The translations under genes were made by a program, and so were the position numbers. From a virus, in the IMG/VR virus record IMGVR_UViG_3300025809_000078, positions 1 through 30,709 of that record: a stretch of 30,709 nt of DNA; one strand, given 5' to 3'. The stretch's first letter is position 1. Every line of letters begins with the position of its first letter. Below, piece after piece: positions 9,208-30,419 of the stretch. Under the pieces are notes generated by a model. The model did not search any database. It was not told the DNA's origin and saw only the letters and a program-made list of their open reading frames with translations.

Positions 9208-9765
9208 ATGAAAAATCTATTTAAATCATTGGCAGCGTTTCAGCAGGAATGCCCCACAATCCACAAAGCAACGCAAGGCTACGGCTACACATACGCCGAC
9301 TTGCCTGCGATATTCAAAGTTATTAATCCGCTGATGAAAAAGCACGGGCTTGGGTTTATGCAGGAACTTCACAACGACAGTATAATCACTACAATCTTTC
9401 ACGTTGAAAGCGGAGAGATGCGGGAGTCAAAAGCCAGCATCCCACAAGGCGTTCAGCTAAAAGGTATGAACGACTTTCAGGTCTTAGGATCGGCGATAAC
9501 CTACATCCGCAGATACGCATTAAGTAGCGCACTTGGATTAGTCACCGACAAAGACATAGACGCAGCAGGCGAGCAGATTCCTCAACCCAAAGTAAAGGCG
9601 GCGAAGCCTAAACTACTCAGAGATGTTATTAGGGACGGATATCCCGTTCCTTCAGAGGAATGGATCAAGGCGCGAGAGTTCGTAATGGACGGCGGCGACA
9701 TTGCCAAAATCACAGCTAAGTATGACGTATCGCCTACATTAATTCAAAAACTAAAAGCACTTTAA
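9208..9765 (+). CDS. ERF-family single-strand annealing recombinase
   Basis: The N-terminal ~140 residues match the ERF pattern: HKATQGYGYTYADLPAIFKV, INPLMKKHGLGFMQE, an ESGE motif (HVESGEMRES) and the conserved FQVLGSAITYIRRYALSSAL followed by GLVTDKDIDA. ERF proteins anneal complementary single strands and drive phage recombination and genome circularisation. Residues ~150-185 form a short helical tail (EWIKAREFVMDGGDIAKITA) that may be a small helix-turn-helix. The length (185) is normal. The SSB-like gene 270 bases downstream fits a working pair. Confidence 0.9.
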   Translation: MKNLFKSLAAFQQECPTIHKATQGYGYTYADLPAIFKVINPLMKKHGLGFMQELHNDSIITTIFHVESGEMRESKASIPQGVQLKGMNDFQVLGSAITYIRRYALSSALGLVTDKDIDAAGEQIPQPKVKAAKPKLLRDVIRDGYPVPSEEWIKAREFVMDGGDIAKITAKYDVSPTLIQKLKAL

Positions 9766-10033: not shown

Positions 10034-10297
10034 ATGGAAAATGAAAAAGTATTCTTAGGCAGAATCAAAACAGTCGAAACTCAGTATGGTAAAATGACCA
10101 AGATCAGCTTTGGGCCGAAGGACTTAGAGGTCTTGCAAAAGGCAGCCTCAGAAACAGGGTGGTCAAATTGGACGCTCAAAGAATCCAAAAGTGGAGGTCA
10201 CTATATGGAGCAAGATACTTGGAAACCTGAACGTCAGGAGGTCAAGCCAGCAGCCGCTAACGCCGAAAATAAGCCAGCCGATGACTTACCATTCTGA
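10034..10297 (+). CDS. SSB-like single-stranded DNA-binding protein
   Basis: The 87-residue product starts with beta-forming segments (EKVFLGRIKTVETQYGKMTK, ISFGPKDLEVLQ) and ends with a Pro/Ala-rich linker and the acidic-aromatic tip DDLPF. That tip is the hallmark by which SSB proteins recruit partners, so a role in coating single-stranded DNA is likely. The domain is shorter than a full bacterial SSB OB fold (~110 residues), so this is a reduced or phage-specific version. The last 17 bases overlap the DnaA-like gene. Confidence 0.65.
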   Translation: MENEKVFLGRIKTVETQYGKMTKISFGPKDLEVLQKAASETGWSNWTLKESKSGGHYMEQDTWKPERQEVKPAAANAENKPADDLPF

Positions 10298-10778
10298 TGA
10301 AATAGTCGAACTACGCATCCAGCTTCCGCAATTCGCGGAGGCTTTGCGGCAGGCGAGGCTAAATTACGACGCGGTTGTTGAGCAGCTTGAAAAGCTAACG
10401 CACACCAAAGTAATATATGATGACGTTGTCAGCGACGAGGTGAAAGCAGATCGAATATTGCGAACTGTTTCAGACCTTTCAGGCGTTCCAATGTCAACAA
10501 TGTTGAGCGCGAACAGGCACAGATCAGTTGTAATTGCGCGGCAAGTTGCAACGTATCTAATTAAAGAAAACACGCAATACTCCTTAGGTCGAATTGGTCA
10601 GATTATCGCCACAGGTAAGCCCAAAAATCACGCAACAGTAATTCACAGCGTTAAAATAGTTCTTGATTCGTATTGGCAAGCCAAACACACCAACACCGAA
10701 ACCGAAATCTACAAGCTGACTGAGCAGTCGAAGGATTTGATAACTAGCGATTACAAGTCTCAAGTCATAATTGATTAA
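10281..10778 (+). CDS. DnaA domain IV-like replication protein
   Basis: ATG 10281 lies inside the end of the SSB-like gene and gives 165 residues. The N-terminal ~50 residues form a helical coil (AEALRQARLNYDAVVEQLEK). Residues ~60-130 match the DNA-binding domain IV of DnaA: DLSGVPMSTMLSANRHRSVV, IARQVATYLIKENTQYSLGR, IGQIIATGKPKNHATVIHSV. KNHATVIHS corresponds to the 'DHTTVLHA' signature of DnaA. The AAA+ domain is absent. It probably binds origin sequences; the iterons at 11122-11165 in the next gene are the obvious candidate target. Confidence 0.8.
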   Translation: MTYHSDEIVELRIQLPQFAEALRQARLNYDAVVEQLEKLTHTKVIYDDVVSDEVKADRILRTVSDLSGVPMSTMLSANRHRSVVIARQVATYLIKENTQYSLGRIGQIIATGKPKNHATVIHSVKIVLDSYWQAKHTNTETEIYKLTEQSKDLITSDYKSQVIID

Positions 10779-10802: not shown

Positions 10803-11429
10803 ATGGCGAAGGAATTACCTTATTTTAAATTTGAGCCCAGCGAATGGGATAACGGCAACATTCAAATGTGCAGCTTCAACACACGGGCAATGTTCATTGA
10901 GTTGTGCTGCATTTATTGGATTCGAGTCGGAGATCTGCCCTATGCTTTAGCTTTACAAAAAGTATGTGGCGGCAATCAAGGACCGTTAATCGAACTAAAA
11001 AAACACCAAATAATCAAGGTTGAGGATGATTTGATAAGTATTAAGTTCCTTGACGAGCAGCTTGAAAGCTTCACCGAAACAAGGGCGAAAAACTCAGCGG
11101 CAGCGCGAAAAAGATGGGGTGGCAATGCGAGCGCAATGCGAGCGCATAGCGAAGGCAATGCCATAAGAGAAGAGAAGAAGAGAGAAGAGAAGAAGATAAT
11201 ACCATCAGTTGAGGAGTTTGTTGATTATTGCGTTTCAAAGCAGGCAAACGTTGATCCATCTCACGCCAAACTAAAATTCGATCAATGGGTAGAGAACGGT
11301 TGGAAGGACGGCTATAATAAACCGATTAAGGTTTGGAAGTCAAAAGCCAATGGAGTAATTCCTCACTTAAAAACAATCCAGCCGAAAGGCAAGTATCAAT
11401 TAGATAAATCTCAATCTAAAGACTTTTGA
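10803..11429 (+). CDS. Replisome organiser-like protein (DUF1376/Lin1244 type N-terminus)
   Basis: The 208-residue product begins ELPYFKFEPSEWDNGNIQMC, typical of phage replication proteins with a winged-helix N-terminal domain (FNTRAMFIELCCIYWIRVGD). Residues ~100-135 form a polar linker (GGNASAMRAHSEGNAIREEK, then Lys/Glu repeats), and the C-terminal ~70 residues are another small domain (FVDYCVSKQANVDPSHAKLK). The linker is encoded by an iteron array and purine tract, as in lambda O, where the origin lies inside the initiator gene. A TAATTTTG at 10776-10783 and the leader ACAAAACAAACAAACGAA precede ATG 10803. It probably recruits the helicase encoded at 13247. Confidence 0.75.
   Translation: MAKELPYFKFEPSEWDNGNIQMCSFNTRAMFIELCCIYWIRVGDLPYALALQKVCGGNQGPLIELKKHQIIKVEDDLISIKFLDEQLESFTETRAKNSAAARKRWGGNASAMRAHSEGNAIREEKKREEKKIIPSVEEFVDYCVSKQANVDPSHAKLKFDQWVENGWKDGYNKPIKVWKSKANGVIPHLKTIQPKGKYQLDKSQSKDF
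11122..11200 (+). repeat. Iteron array with purine tract, candidate replication origin
   Basis: Four 11-base units follow one another: GCAATGCGAGC (11122), GCAATGCGAGC (11133), GCATAGCGAAG (11144) and GCAATGCCATA (11155). A tract made almost only of A and G (AGAGAAGAGAAGAAG...) continues to about 11200. The array lies inside the replisome organiser gene and downstream of the DnaA-like gene. Iterons plus an easily opened asymmetric tract within the initiator gene is the lambda-type origin layout. Because 11 is not a multiple of 3, the repeat is not a codon repeat. A related copy lies at 23721-23792. Confidence 0.6.
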
Positions 11430-16237: not shown

Positions 16238-16613
16238 AGGACTTGGTGACACGATTGAAAAGATAACTGAAGCCACAGGAATTAAGAAGGCGGTCAAATG
16301 GCTTGCTGGTGAGGACTGCGGATGTGACGCTCGAAAGGAAAAGCTGAATGAGATGTTTCCAAACGATCGGCATAAGCCAACTAAGTGTATGTCCGAAGGG
16401 CAATATAACCAATGGACAAAATTGAAGGATATCACCAAGCAGGATAAGAATCGATACTTGACTGAGGTCTACCCAGCGATTGCTCAGATTCACGCTGTCG
16501 TTTTTGGTCATAGATATCACGAGCCTTGCACTTGCACACCAAGACAATGGGAGCAATGGCGAAACGATTTAGATCAAGTTTATTCAACATACGAAGCAGA
16601 TGCAAAAAGTTAA
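16185..16613 (+). CDS. Conserved phage protein with Cys pairs, 142 aa
   Basis: After a basic Lys/Arg-rich start (PRAKSTKPTRKRKAPSKG), the product has GLGDTIEKITEATGIKKAV, then WLAGEDCGCDARKEKLNEMF, and a later Cys pair with His (HRYHEPCTCTPRQWEQW). Two CxC pairs plus histidines could bind zinc. I recall the 'GLGDTIEKIT...GEDCGCD' pattern from flavobacterial phages, near terminase genes, without known function. It overlaps the sigma gene by 53 bases and the ParB-like gene by 14. It could be a DNA-binding packaging or regulatory factor. Confidence 0.65.
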   Translation: MPRAKSTKPTRKRKAPSKGLGDTIEKITEATGIKKAVKWLAGEDCGCDARKEKLNEMFPNDRHKPTKCMSEGQYNQWTKLKDITKQDKNRYLTEVYPAIAQIHAVVFGHRYHEPCTCTPRQWEQWRNDLDQVYSTYEADAKS

Positions 16614-17202
16614 GATAGCAGAAGTCAAGACCAATCCGAATAATCCGCGATTGATAAAGGATGACAAGTTTAAGAAGCTGGTCAAGTCAATAAAAGAGTT
16701 CCCTCAGATGCTTGAGTTGCGCCCGATTGTAGTCAACGATGATATGATTGTTCTTGGCGGCAATATGCGTTTAAAGGCTTGCAAGGAAGCAGGATTAAAA
16801 GAAGTGCCTATCATAAAGGCAAGCGATTTAACTGACGAGCAACAGAACGAGTTCATAGTAAAAGACAATGTAGGTTTCGGAGAATGGGATTGGGATGTGT
16901 TGGCAAACGAATGGGATGTAGTTCAACTTGAGGATTGGGGATTAGATGGTTTTCCTTTTGAGGATAACATTAATTTAAGCGATGAGTTTGGTGAAGATTT
17001 CAATTTAAAAGATGGAGACAAAGAACCATTTCAACAAATGACCTTTACTCTTGCAGATGAACAAGTTGAGCAGATTAAAAACGCAATAGCGGATATAAAG
17101 CAAACAGAAGAGTATAAGTACTGCGAAACAATGGGCAACGAGAATAGTAACGGCAACTCTTTATATTTAATAGTAATGCAATGGGCAGAGCAAAGGAGAT
17201 AA
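16600..17202 (+). CDS. ParB-like (sulfiredoxin-fold) protein
   Basis: The 200-residue product begins KVKIAEVKTNPNNPRLIKDD, then LRPIVVNDDMIVLGGNMRLK and ACKEAGLKEVPIIKASDL, the N-terminal pattern of ParB/Spo0J-type domains (a fold now known to bind CTP in ParB). No helix-turn-helix or methyltransferase follows; the C-terminal half is acidic and ends in LYLIVMQWAEQRR. In phages such proteins often sit beside DNA modification or terminase genes. The composition turns A+T-richer at about 16,980, within the C-terminal half. It overlaps the Mom-like gene by 22 bases. Confidence 0.75.
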   Translation: MQKVKIAEVKTNPNNPRLIKDDKFKKLVKSIKEFPQMLELRPIVVNDDMIVLGGNMRLKACKEAGLKEVPIIKASDLTDEQQNEFIVKDNVGFGEWDWDVLANEWDVVQLEDWGLDGFPFEDNINLSDEFGEDFNLKDGDKEPFQQMTFTLADEQVEQIKNAIADIKQTEEYKYCETMGNENSNGNSLYLIVMQWAEQRR

Positions 17203-23697: not shown

Positions 23698-23720
23698 ATG
23701 AGGTAGTTGCAAATAAAAGT

Positions 23721-23792
23721 ATGCGCTCGCATTGCGCTCGCATTGCCATCGCAATGCCATAAGAGAAGATAAGAGAAGATAAGATAAGAGAA
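23721..23792 (+). repeat. Second iteron/purine-tract element in the 23.7-kb intergenic gap
   Basis: The gap 23698-23799 holds no gene. 23721-23746 is the exact reverse complement of 26 bases at 11122-11147 (two GCAATGCGAGC units plus GCAT). 23751-23769 repeats 19 bases of 11155-11173 in the same direction (GCAATGCCATAAGAGAAGA). A tract of TAAGAGAAGA repeats then runs to about 23792. At the junction GCATTGC (23740-23746) and GCAATGC (23751-23757) form a 7-bp hairpin with loop CATC. It may be a second origin, a binding site for the replication proteins, or a recombination scar. It lies just upstream of ATG 23800. Confidence 0.7.
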
Positions 23793-23799
23793 AACACCT

Positions 23800-26325
23800 A
23801 TGAGGTTAATTGTTGAAGTTTATATTGATGACCAGCGTCTGGATTTATTCACAGACGAATCGATTGAGATCAATCGAACGATTAAAGACTTCCGTGAATT
23901 GGATAAAGTCTTTACCGATTACACGCAATCGTTCACGATTCCTGCGAGCAAGAATAATAATATTGCGATGTCGCATTGGTACGATGAAAGCATTGCAACA
24001 GGATTCAACCCTGCAACAAAGAAGGCCGCAAGAATTGACATAAACACCTTACCATTCCGATTTGGATATATGTGGCTCAACAGGGCTGTATTAAAAAATG
24101 GTAGTGTTGATTATTACGAAGTAGCTTTTTTTAGCCAAATCACAAATCTTTCTGATTTTTTTGGAAAAGACACTCTATCACAGCTAGGTAGCGTTTCAGG
24201 CGCGCATATGGGCTATAATGATTTTTCAGACGCGATAAAAGGTACGGTTGGCACAGATCACATAATACCAATGGCAACGTCGCAAAGGAATTGGAATTTG
24301 CAAGGCAGAGGCAACGGAATTTACAATTCAATAAACAACAATCCATATAAGTCATCGGTAGGCGTAAACAACGATCGTACGTTACAAGCTTATGAGGTAA
24401 ACACCGAACACGAAAATTATGATTTCGCGAACAATTGGTTTATTCAAGATGGAAACACAGGGGGCGGTGCTGATACATTTTTGATTTACATTGTTGTTGC
24501 AAACCAAGCTGTCGATTGGACTATCAAAGCATACGACGCTTATGATGGTTTTGCGTATTTAGATGGAACGCAGGATAGCGGAACGGGTAATGATGTTTTA
24601 TCTATTCAAGTTACTCGATCAATCACCGCCGCGCAGGCTATTGCTTGGCAATTTTCAGATGTGCCTCAATGTGATTTTAAAGTTTACATTTCAGTAGCGT
24701 TGAATGCTGCGAATGAGTTGGTGACGGCAAAGTATCAATACGCTTCACAGGGCGGCCTTATGTACGAATTAAAGCCTGCGCTAAAAGCGGATAGAATTTT
24801 GACTGAAATTGAGAATAAATATTCAATTTCTTTTACGGGAGGTTTTTGGTCAAAGGACGCTTGGCAAGATTTATTTGTTTGGAGTAATCGCGCTGAAGGA
24901 TTTGGTGATCATTACACAATGGAGTACACCCAAATCATTAATGGTACTCAAGTATCTCCGCAAAGTGGAAGCACTCAGTATAATCCAACCACAGGCGTTT
25001 TGACTGTTCCTGCAAACTCAGGTACAAAAACAGTTACAGTTGCGTTAACTGTTCAGCAAAGTATAATTGATCAAGTTAATGATAGTTTGCCAACACCAAA
25101 GCTGAAGCTAGTGGCTTACGACATTATATCAAGCAGCGTCTTTCAAATAGTATATTTTCCCGAAGGACGAGAAGGCGTTATTGAGTTTTCATTTCCCGAC
25201 TCTGCCGCACAAAGACAAATTAAGTTTTACGTCAAATCCAATTTTCCTGAGAAATTCAATTGGACAATTGCAAGCGCAACGTCTCAATTCAATTTTATAT
25301 ACCAAGACGAATTGGTTGAATTAGACACATCGTCCACTTGCGAGTTTCGTTATTTCAATCATTCATATACGGATAGCTTGACAGGCGAAACGCTTACGGT
25401 TGAGGGTGGGATTCCTGACCAAAATATATTCGAATGGTTAAGTGGCATCATAAAAATGTTCAACCTAATTATATTACCGATAGATTCGACAACGTTTCAG
25501 GTTGAAACTTTTGACGATTGGAAGGCGTTAGGAAATGATGTTGATATAACTAAACACGTTGATCTGGACAACGTGGAAGTGCAACCTGCCGAACTATTTA
25601 AGCAGCTAAAATTCGCATACCAACCAACCGAATCTGTGATTGGTCAAAATTTTTCACAACAAAACGGCGGCATTGGCTATGGCGATTCAGTTACAGAAAT
25701 TAGAGACGCTTATGGAGATGCCATCAGTTCAAATAATTTTGAGTTGACAACTATTTTTGAAAATCCTTCGTGGTCACGCCTAACGAATTTTGCGCCTGAA
25801 ACATCAAACAACGAAATACTCAGCAAGCTGATGGTTTGCCATTACATTGATAAAGACCTTTCAACAATAGGCGGCGCGCCTGTTATGTTTTATAAGGCAG
25901 GGGTTCAGGATTTGTTGCCCGACGATGAAACGCTATTTTCGTTTAGGAATTTTTACACATCAGAAGTCACAAGTGGAGCAAACGCTTTTAATAGATACAA
26001 TGTTTGTTTTCAATATAACGGAATGGGGAGCAGCTTTACGAACAGCTTAAACTTTGGCGCAGAAGTTAATCCGTTCACGCTAGTCACCGACACGCCCACC
26101 AGCCCAAGTATATACAAATACTTTTGGGAAGATTGGATATCAGAACTTTACGATTTATCGATGAGGCGAACTATGCTTCGCGCAATTTTGCCATTGCATT
26201 TGATGCTTGAAATAAAAGTAAATGATGTGCTGATAATTCGCACAAATAGATACACCATAAATAATATGCGTTTAAACCTGACAACAGGCGAAGCAAACTT
26301 TGAACTTTTAACACTTGTAGACTAA
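23800..26325 (+). CDS. Large tail/baseplate protein, 841 aa
   Basis: The start, RLIVEVYIDDQRLDLFTDES, followed by DFRELDKVFTDYTQSFTIPA and SKNNNIAMSHWY, is a conserved beginning of a large tail protein in Bacteroidota phages. The middle is beta-rich with Ser/Thr/Gly stretches (VSPQSGSTQYNPTTGVLTVP). The C-terminal third contains GGIPDQNIFEWLSGIIKMFN and a final RTNRYTINNMRLNLTTGEAN. It probably forms the distal tail or baseplate hub. No lysozyme or peptidase motif is visible. It follows the iteron-like gap. The TAA overlaps the next ATG (TAATG). Confidence 0.65.
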   Translation: MRLIVEVYIDDQRLDLFTDESIEINRTIKDFRELDKVFTDYTQSFTIPASKNNNIAMSHWYDESIATGFNPATKKAARIDINTLPFRFGYMWLNRAVLKNGSVDYYEVAFFSQITNLSDFFGKDTLSQLGSVSGAHMGYNDFSDAIKGTVGTDHIIPMATSQRNWNLQGRGNGIYNSINNNPYKSSVGVNNDRTLQAYEVNTEHENYDFANNWFIQDGNTGGGADTFLIYIVVANQAVDWTIKAYDAYDGFAYLDGTQDSGTGNDVLSIQVTRSITAAQAIAWQFSDVPQCDFKVYISVALNAANELVTAKYQYASQGGLMYELKPALKADRILTEIENKYSISFTGGFWSKDAWQDLFVWSNRAEGFGDHYTMEYTQIINGTQVSPQSGSTQYNPTTGVLTVPANSGTKTVTVALTVQQSIIDQVNDSLPTPKLKLVAYDIISSSVFQIVYFPEGREGVIEFSFPDSAAQRQIKFYVKSNFPEKFNWTIASATSQFNFIYQDELVELDTSSTCEFRYFNHSYTDSLTGETLTVEGGIPDQNIFEWLSGIIKMFNLIILPIDSTTFQVETFDDWKALGNDVDITKHVDLDNVEVQPAELFKQLKFAYQPTESVIGQNFSQQNGGIGYGDSVTEIRDAYGDAISSNNFELTTIFENPSWSRLTNFAPETSNNEILSKLMVCHYIDKDLSTIGGAPVMFYKAGVQDLLPDDETLFSFRNFYTSEVTSGANAFNRYNVCFQYNGMGSSFTNSLNFGAEVNPFTLVTDTPTSPSIYKYFWEDWISELYDLSMRRTMLRAILPLHLMLEIKVNDVLIIRTNRYTINNMRLNLTTGEANFELLTLVD

Positions 26326-28892: not shown

Positions 28893-29121
28893 AGACAAAT
28901 TACGCTATTACAACGCCACATCTTCTAGGCGCGGTGGTCGAAGAGGCTGTTTATGCCCAAACAACACATATTCAATTAGGTGCTGCGATGGCTCGCTTTG
29001 GGCGCAGGGCATTGGAAACATAACAGGAACACCGCCTGTAACGATAAACTACATATATGTGACAACGGATGACTTCATTTACGTCACTTCGAACAACGAA
29101 ATTTACCTAACAGTCAACTAA
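28885..29121 (+). CDS. Small Cys-rich virion-region protein, 78 aa
   Basis: The product has a basic start (RKDKLRYYNATSSRRGGRRG), a cysteine cluster (CLCPNNTYSIRCCDGSLWAQ) and a beta-forming end with two similar segments (TTDDFIYVTS and TSNNEIYLTV). The CLCP...CC pattern recurs in flavobacterial phage proteins near fibre genes, in my recollection. Four cysteines may make disulphides or bind metal. It overlaps the protease gene by eight bases and shares one base with the fibre start (TAATG). Confidence 0.65.
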   Translation: MRKDKLRYYNATSSRRGGRRGCLCPNNTYSIRCCDGSLWAQGIGNITGTPPVTINYIYVTTDDFIYVTSNNEIYLTVN

Positions 29122-30419
29122 TGGCAACAGAAAGAGTCGGCATACACAGCTTCGCAGAACTTGAAGCATCTATTGGAAACGCGAAAACAGCAGCCGATGT
29201 TAAAACAGCATACGAAAGCAACGCGAACACGAATGAGTTTAGCGATTCAGAACAGACCAAGCTGCTAGGAGTTGAAGCTGGAGCAGAGGTAAACCCAACG
29301 GATGCGGAGATAAAAACAGCATACGAAAACAATGCAAACACAAACGCGTTTACTGATGCCGAGCAAACCAAGCTGTCAGGTATATCGACAGGCGCGGAGG
29401 TTAACGCTGTTGATTCTGTATTCGGAAGGACAGGAGCAGTAACTGCTCAAAGCGGTGACTATACAAAGTCAGATGTTGGACTTGCAAACGTAGACAACAC
29501 CAGCGATGCGGATAAGCCAATCAGCACGGCAACGCAAACAGCGTTAGATGCAAAGCAAGGAGACATTACCTTAACTACCACAGGCACATCAGGTGCAGCT
29601 ACATTGGTAGGTGACACGCTAAATATTCCAGAATACGCTGGTGGTGGTGGTGGTGGTGTAGACACATTCAACACTTTAACAGGAGACGTAACAATCTCAG
29701 AGGGTACAAACATCACATTCAATACTGTCGGTAATGACATTGAAATTAGCGCATCAGGTGGTGGTGGTAGTGGAACAGTAACTGAAGTGACAACTAACGC
29801 ACCTTTATCGGTTACAAGCGGCACTACAACCCCTGACTTGACAATAACACAAGCAACAACGTCAGTAGATGGGTACTTAACTTCAACTGATTGGAACACA
29901 TTTAACAACGGAGCAGGATTAGCAGCTACGGCAAATCAAGATTCAACAGCGACAATTTTAGCAGGCGATTTAACAGGTCAAGTCAACAGCGTGGCGGTTG
30001 CCACAGTAACATCAGGCGCAGCTTTAGGCGCAACATCAAATCAAGATTCAAACGCTACAATATTAAGCGGAGACCTTACAGGCACAGTTAATTCAGTAGC
30101 AGTTGCCACAGTAACGTCAGGAGCAGCACTTGGAGCAACATCCAATCAAGACTCAACAGCGACCATATTAAGCGGTAATTTAACAGGTCAAGTAAATTCA
30201 GTTGCCGTTGCAACAGTTACAAGTGGCGCGGCATTGGGGGCAACATCAACGCAGCCAAGCGACAACGTTTCAACGCTGACAAATGACGCGGCATATCTAC
30301 CATCTGATCCATCAGCGGTTACGGGAGCAGATGCAATTACCAACATTATGAGTTTGACGCAAGCGGAATATGACGCGATCACAACGCCGAACGCAACGAC
30401 ACTTTATATCATAGCATAG
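29121..30419 (+). CDS. Tail fibre/appendage protein with repeats, 432 aa
   Basis: The protein is built of repeats. Near the N-terminus two ~37-residue units share KTAYExNANTNxFxDxEQTK followed by GAEVN, as in trimeric tail fibres. Next come VFGRTGAVTAQSGDYTKSDV and GLANVDNTSDADKPISTATQ, another known fibre motif. Two Gly runs (AGGGGGGVD, SGGGGSGT) act as flexible joints. Residues ~269-373 hold three nearly identical 35-residue units (TILSGDLTGQVNSVAVATVT). The end, AITTPNATTLYIIA, is typical of phage appendage proteins. It probably forms a trimeric fibre contacting the host surface together with the LamG-like protein, which starts at its stop codon. Confidence 0.75.
   Translation: MATERVGIHSFAELEASIGNAKTAADVKTAYESNANTNEFSDSEQTKLLGVEAGAEVNPTDAEIKTAYENNANTNAFTDAEQTKLSGISTGAEVNAVDSVFGRTGAVTAQSGDYTKSDVGLANVDNTSDADKPISTATQTALDAKQGDITLTTTGTSGAATLVGDTLNIPEYAGGGGGGVDTFNTLTGDVTISEGTNITFNTVGNDIEISASGGGGSGTVTEVTTNAPLSVTSGTTTPDLTITQATTSVDGYLTSTDWNTFNNGAGLAATANQDSTATILAGDLTGQVNSVAVATVTSGAALGATSNQDSNATILSGDLTGTVNSVAVATVTSGAALGATSNQDSTATILSGNLTGQVNSVAVATVTSGAALGATSTQPSDNVSTLTNDAAYLPSDPSAVTGADAITNIMSLTQAEYDAITTPNATTLYIIA
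29925..30239 (+). repeat. Three tandem 105-base coding repeats in the fibre gene
   Basis: Units begin at 29925, 30030 and 30135, each 105 bases (35 codons), encoding A-T-x-N-Q-D-S ... SGAALG. A fourth, diverging copy starts at 30240 (ATSTQPSD). Protein identity is high while many third codon positions differ, so the repeats are under protein-level selection or old, not a recent DNA duplication. Unit number may vary between relatives. Confidence 0.85.

Follow-up and report, generated by a model that had tools for sequence, protein, structure and literature searches.

The noncoding gap between two tail genes at 23698-23799 of the window (the whole 30,709-nt stretch of viral DNA analysed here) raised the question of why a DNA element from inside a replication gene should recur there, partly inverted. 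The first-pass annotation had reported that 26 bases at 23721-23746 were the exact reverse complement of 11122-11147, that a 19-base block at 23751-23769 matched 11155-11173 in the direct sense, and that a purine tract followed both copies. All three observations were confirmed, and the inverted match was found to extend to 29 nt (23720-23748 versus 11120-11148); in random sequence of the window's length, about 1e-7 exact matches of at least 26 nt are expected by chance. Direct alignment of the gene and gap copies over the whole element gave 80% identity over 69 nt. The inverted and direct matches coexist because the iterons are near-palindromes (GC-NNNN-GC cores at 11-bp spacing) of which only the centres were turned round. 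Apart from these reversed centres, the second element in the gap is complete and in direct register. The mixed orientation was rightly judged to be no simple duplication, and another clade shows it too. Thus, the element of the initiator gene (10803-11429) is present a second time, in full, in the gap. Each copy is built of iterons in 11-bp phase (GCNNNNGC), a junction (GCAATGCCAT), and an AAGAN tract of 5-bp period, with the iterons preceding the junction by 9, 20, 31, and 42 nt in each. The gap copy is laid out as follows.

23722-23731, + strand: gap iteron 1, TGCGCTCGCA, with the GCGCTCGC core in reverse polarity, matching the gene iteron exactly in reverse complement
23733-23742, + strand: gap iteron 2, TGCGCTCGCA, 11 bp from gap iteron 1
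23744-23753, + strand: gap iteron 3, degenerate, TGCCATCGCA
23754-23760, + strand: gap junction ATGCCAT, the boundary between iterons and tract, in the same register and sense as in the gene copy
23761-23790, + strand: gap purine tract (AAGAN)x6, 5-bp period, 70% A+T, a candidate unwinding region

The segment was uninterrupted in L015 and L035, contigs from two other metagenomes that are 95% identical to the window. Since both contigs read through it, the suspicion of a chimeric assembly join was refuted. Gap iteron 3 was doubled in these two relatives (one 11-bp unit more), so that the array evolves by gain and loss of units, and AAGAC/AAGAT repeats were retained in the gap purine tracts of relatives. 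In the window, the top score for a second site was 32; across 8 shuffled genomes it did not exceed 15. The + strand of the gap is noncoding, its longest frame being 24-31 codons, and an Rfam search of the gap returned no match. The hairpin proposed at 23740-23757 does exist in the window, but it is a by-product of the layout and is not conserved, because relatives gave different predicted folds; as a functional unit it was ruled out for the same reason. Cumulative GC skew rose steadily along the window and marked no origin. Elsewhere in the window, a 20-nt palindrome-like unit, ATCGTGTTATTTAAAACACG, occurred twice exactly, 22 nt apart, at 2793-2834, in noncoding DNA ahead of gene 2893. Gene 29121-30419, which has a tail-tip domain, contains tandem repeats of 105 nt and 111 nt (29910-30249 and 29186-29405) in a region that differs from that of L035, and a ParB-like nuclease/methyltransferase-type gene was located at 16600-17202 in the interval between replication and packaging genes.

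The gene copy and its surroundings were then described in the same manner.

10803-11429, + strand: initiator-like gene, with a DUF1376-like winged-helix N-domain, an element-coded linker, and a variable C-domain
11091-11093, + strand: codon of initiator Asn97; residue 97 varies in step with the iteron half-site
11126-11157, + strand: gene iterons in forward polarity, encoding NASAMRAHSEG
11126-11135 and 11137-11146, + strand: TGCGAGCGCA gene iterons
11148-11157, + strand: degenerate gene iteron AGCGAAGGCA
11158-11164, + strand: gene-copy junction ATGCCAT
11165-11197, + strand: gene-copy purine tract, encoding REEKKREEKK
10191-10778, + strand: DnaA domain-IV-like gene (Pfam Bac_DnaA_C, 4.6e-17) adjoining the initiator gene, an alternative or accessory reader
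9208-9765, + strand: ERF-family recombinase gene (Pfam ERF, 3.5e-24), which fits recombination-dependent replication

Comparison of the window with L048 revealed synonymous changes in 0 of 20 shared codons within the element versus 63 of 148 elsewhere, and comparison with L050 gave 0 of 18 versus 62 of 147. The lack of synonymous change in the gene copy indicates that it is a DNA signal. In an AlphaFold (AF2) model of modest confidence, the initiator consisted of a winged-helix fold (25-80), a long helix (81-105), and a disordered linker (104-130), and it is this linker that the element encodes. PDB sequence and fold searches with the initiator produced no strong structural match. The window initiator had no match to Pfam DUF1376 (PF07120); 4 of 13 relatives matched this family, all below the cut-off (best E 0.0015), and a weak PHROG match carried the name 'primosomal protein'. 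The C-domains of the initiators were unrelated among phages and the N-domains were conserved (alignment A1), making the element a domain-swap point.

The identity of the protein reading the iterons was addressed by comparing 58 initiators, and of all N-domain columns, column 97 best predicted the class of half-site. Asn at this position accompanied TGCG in 35/35 cases and Arg accompanied TGCA in 18/18, with Ala mixed, these counts not being independent because the genomes are related. Column 97 lies upstream of the element, outside the element-coded part. On the tree the half-site class changed five times with residue 97 following, and since only two of these changes sit on well-supported branches, the residue-97 case is strong, not proven. 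G005 branches from within the window clade and had switched residue 97, its gene iterons, and its gap iterons together; judged from this joint switch, the initiator very likely reads both the gene and the gap sites. Cultured phages outside the 58-initiator analysis agreed (Arctus_1, R/TGCA; morran9-1, N/TGCG). A DnaA-like neighbour was found beside only 10 of the 58 initiators and was rejected as the sole reader on that account. The most likely reader is the DUF1376-like initiator. Co-evolution with the initiator supports the earlier suggestion that preservation of the gap element points to function, and it likewise supports two of the functions suggested, a second origin or a titration site.

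Relatives were checked for loss of the element from the gap, and all eight contigs whose tail gene was at least 52% identical (L040-L045, L230, and the window) kept it; the interpretation thus withstood the refuting condition set in the first-pass annotation. The element was absent from L231, a distant tail-gene relative (24%), and Nonlabens phage P12024L had a distantly related tail gene, but its gap was without the element and no initiator relative was detected. The twin arrangement was also sought, and the full relatives G001, G003 (circular), and G005 each had exactly two elements, 9.4-11 kb apart. A second clade, that of G037, had its own noncoding twin behind the terminase gene in 19 of the 20 contigs reaching that far, and both copies were on one contig in 5 contigs, 7.6-8.8 kb apart. 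The initiator of this clade is diverged but homologous to that of the window (profile comparison probability 99.6%), with the element at the same place. On one contig (L161, also listed as L232) the whole element and the late genes lay on opposite strands, and one terminase relative, L245, lacked the element.

Beyond these clades, the element was common among viral contigs. A strict pattern gave 7 exact matches in 84,980 cellular genomes, 0 of them with iterons, and no match was found in 72,556 plasmids. Neither near nor distant BLAST searches with the window and the gap matched any cultured phage. Most other phages with this initiator had the gene copy only, twins being limited to certain clades, and the twin genomes were drawn from few lineages. 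Fisher p values were given no weight, since they take no account of relatedness. Among gene-only phages (L041/L042-type and others), many had a second iteron array inside the initiator gene, 223 bp upstream of the gene element (for example at G041 7320 and G042 28308), which encodes GNATALNSLCD and has units of both polarities. A pattern designed to pick out noncoding copies alone, by requiring stops in all frames, matched only two copies, both in G028. This 43.7-kb phage had three intergenic elements (L086 208-264, - strand; L171 8619-8677, + strand; L171 1432-1475, - strand), and no gene copy was found in it. At L077 150-240 an element came right after a frame ending in SRWNR-stop, the usual point of transition from N-domain to linker, as in a split or truncated initiator. 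Initiator-like genes with CATGA/CATCATG-type iterons about 11 bp apart were seen at L128 4388, L141 3591, and L168 6199; an AAGAG tract followed these differing iterons, so that the tract is shared and the iterons change.

The polarity of the iterons differed between the two sites. In genomes with both copies, position 4 of GCNNNNGC was A in 23/24 gene units, whereas among the gap units, further clade-2 gaps included, position 5 was T in 44/49 and position 4 was A in 1/49, counts that again are not independent among related genomes. The gap iterons were thus inverted relative to the tract in both clades. Within one genome no unit was shared between gene and gap in the direct sense, and reverse-complement units were common to both in 5/9 genome pairs. 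Coding constraint may fix the polarity of the gene copy: clade-2 units turned round would introduce TAG stops in the gene, and clade-1 units turned round would encode hydrophobic residues. Such constraint does not explain the uniform opposite polarity of the unconstrained gap copies. Since the gap iterons are inverted, the two sites may differ in job. We tentatively raise the possibility, which we consider rather doubtful, that the inverted polarity is itself functional, with the initiator bound forward in its own gene starting forks and bound backward at the late site stopping them.

A similar layout is known from phage SPP1, in which oriL lies inside gene 38 and oriR is late and intergenic, 12-13 kb away; gp38 (G38P) is thought to read both, and fork stalling at oriR has been proposed as the switch from theta replication to concatemers (PMC6316719, PMC3485210). 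The present phage resembles SPP1 in having one site in the initiator gene (here 11126-11197, under synonymous-site constraint), a second late intergenic site (here 23720-23790, 12.6 kb away), and the same organisation at both. It differs in host, which is Bacillus for SPP1 and, judged by cultured relatives, Flavobacteriia here, and in repeats and tract, the gap iterons here being inverted relative to the tract. In phage lambda, ori lies inside gene O, in the linker between the DNA-binding N-domain and the C-domain, and consists of dyad-symmetric iterons beside an opening region (PMC6022878). Here too, palindromic half-sites fall in a linker, the one joining the N- and C-domains of the initiator; however, lambda has a single origin of 18-bp iterons and an AT-rich region, in contrast to two complete elements with 8-10-bp units, 11-bp spacing, and a 5-bp purine tract. 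In iteron plasmids, a winged-helix initiator reads phased repeats (PMC10797057 for iterons), which resembles the phased repeats and predicted winged-helix initiator here, except that a tract is present here besides the repeats. The arrangement also recalls the DnaA-trio and DnaA oriC, in which a box array is followed by a short-period single-strand motif, and a DnaA domain-IV-like gene adjoins the initiator here, but the period is 5 (AAGAN) rather than 3 and the iterons are not DnaA boxes.

Together, these comparisons suggest that the gap is probably a second origin-type binding site of the phage's own initiator, oriR-like, with the gene copy being the primary, oriL-like site. The initiator N-domain would bind the iterons at both sites, and the AAGAN tract would be the part that opens. 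Once bound by the initiator, the gap site might serve, late in infection, as a second start, as a stop for forks coming from the gene copy, or as both. ERF-dependent recombination would then turn theta replication into packaging concatemers, as proposed for SPP1 oriL/oriR.

Co-evolution of residue 97 with both copies of the element would equally be expected if the gap only titrated the initiator, or paired with the gene copy by handcuffing, and so limited initiation with no fork starting or stopping there. In iteron plasmids, inc repeats outside the origin can control initiation, and the inverted polarity could make the gap a binding-only site. We nevertheless consider this unlikely, in that both clades kept, along with the iterons, the junction and AAGAN tract that titration alone would not require. 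The exact 29-nt complement in the window, along with the reverse-complement units also common to gene and gap in G001, G005, L222, and L224, would suit a late gap transcript that pairs with the initiator mRNA and shuts off initiator synthesis. Yet 4 of the 9 genome pairs shared no complementary unit (G003, L221, L228, and L229), antisense pairing does not require the conserved same-sense junction, tract, and 11-bp phase, and the element of L161/L232, lying opposite to the late genes, argues against any fixed sense of transcription, making such control highly improbable.

The same reversed orientation bears on a suggested link to transcription of the tail gene at 23800, by which the gap-bound initiator would act on an operator. 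In the window the tract ends 9 nt from the start codon, as an operator might; however, the downstream gene differed in each clade and the distance from element to gene ranged from ~10 nt to hundreds of nt, and the proposed link was abandoned as very unlikely. Least credible of all was a functionless product of neutral template switching or of faulty assembly. The juxtaposed inverted and direct pieces do resemble a template switch, but near-palindromic iterons can flip polarity in place, only a palindromic iteron centre being required, and the scar proposed by the first-pass annotation was therefore unneeded. Moreover, independent contigs contained the element, and divergent relatives have preserved it, its bases changing in a coordinated way.

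A second origin-type site read by the initiator, as favoured here, would suggest that the twin-origin layout of SPP1 recurs in Bacteroidota phages and is not a Bacillus oddity. The noncoding twins serve as natural controls, indicating that the odd NASAMR...REEKREEK linkers are DNA signals and not protein only. With so compact a signal, 11-bp iterons plus an AAGAN tract, candidate origins can be spotted by visual inspection in dozens of phages. Testable predictions on how a phage distinguishes the start site from the second late site follow from the residue-97/half-site code and from the recurrent inversion of polarity. If the polarity does prove functional, one protein would be both initiator and polar terminator, programming the switch from theta replication to concatemers.
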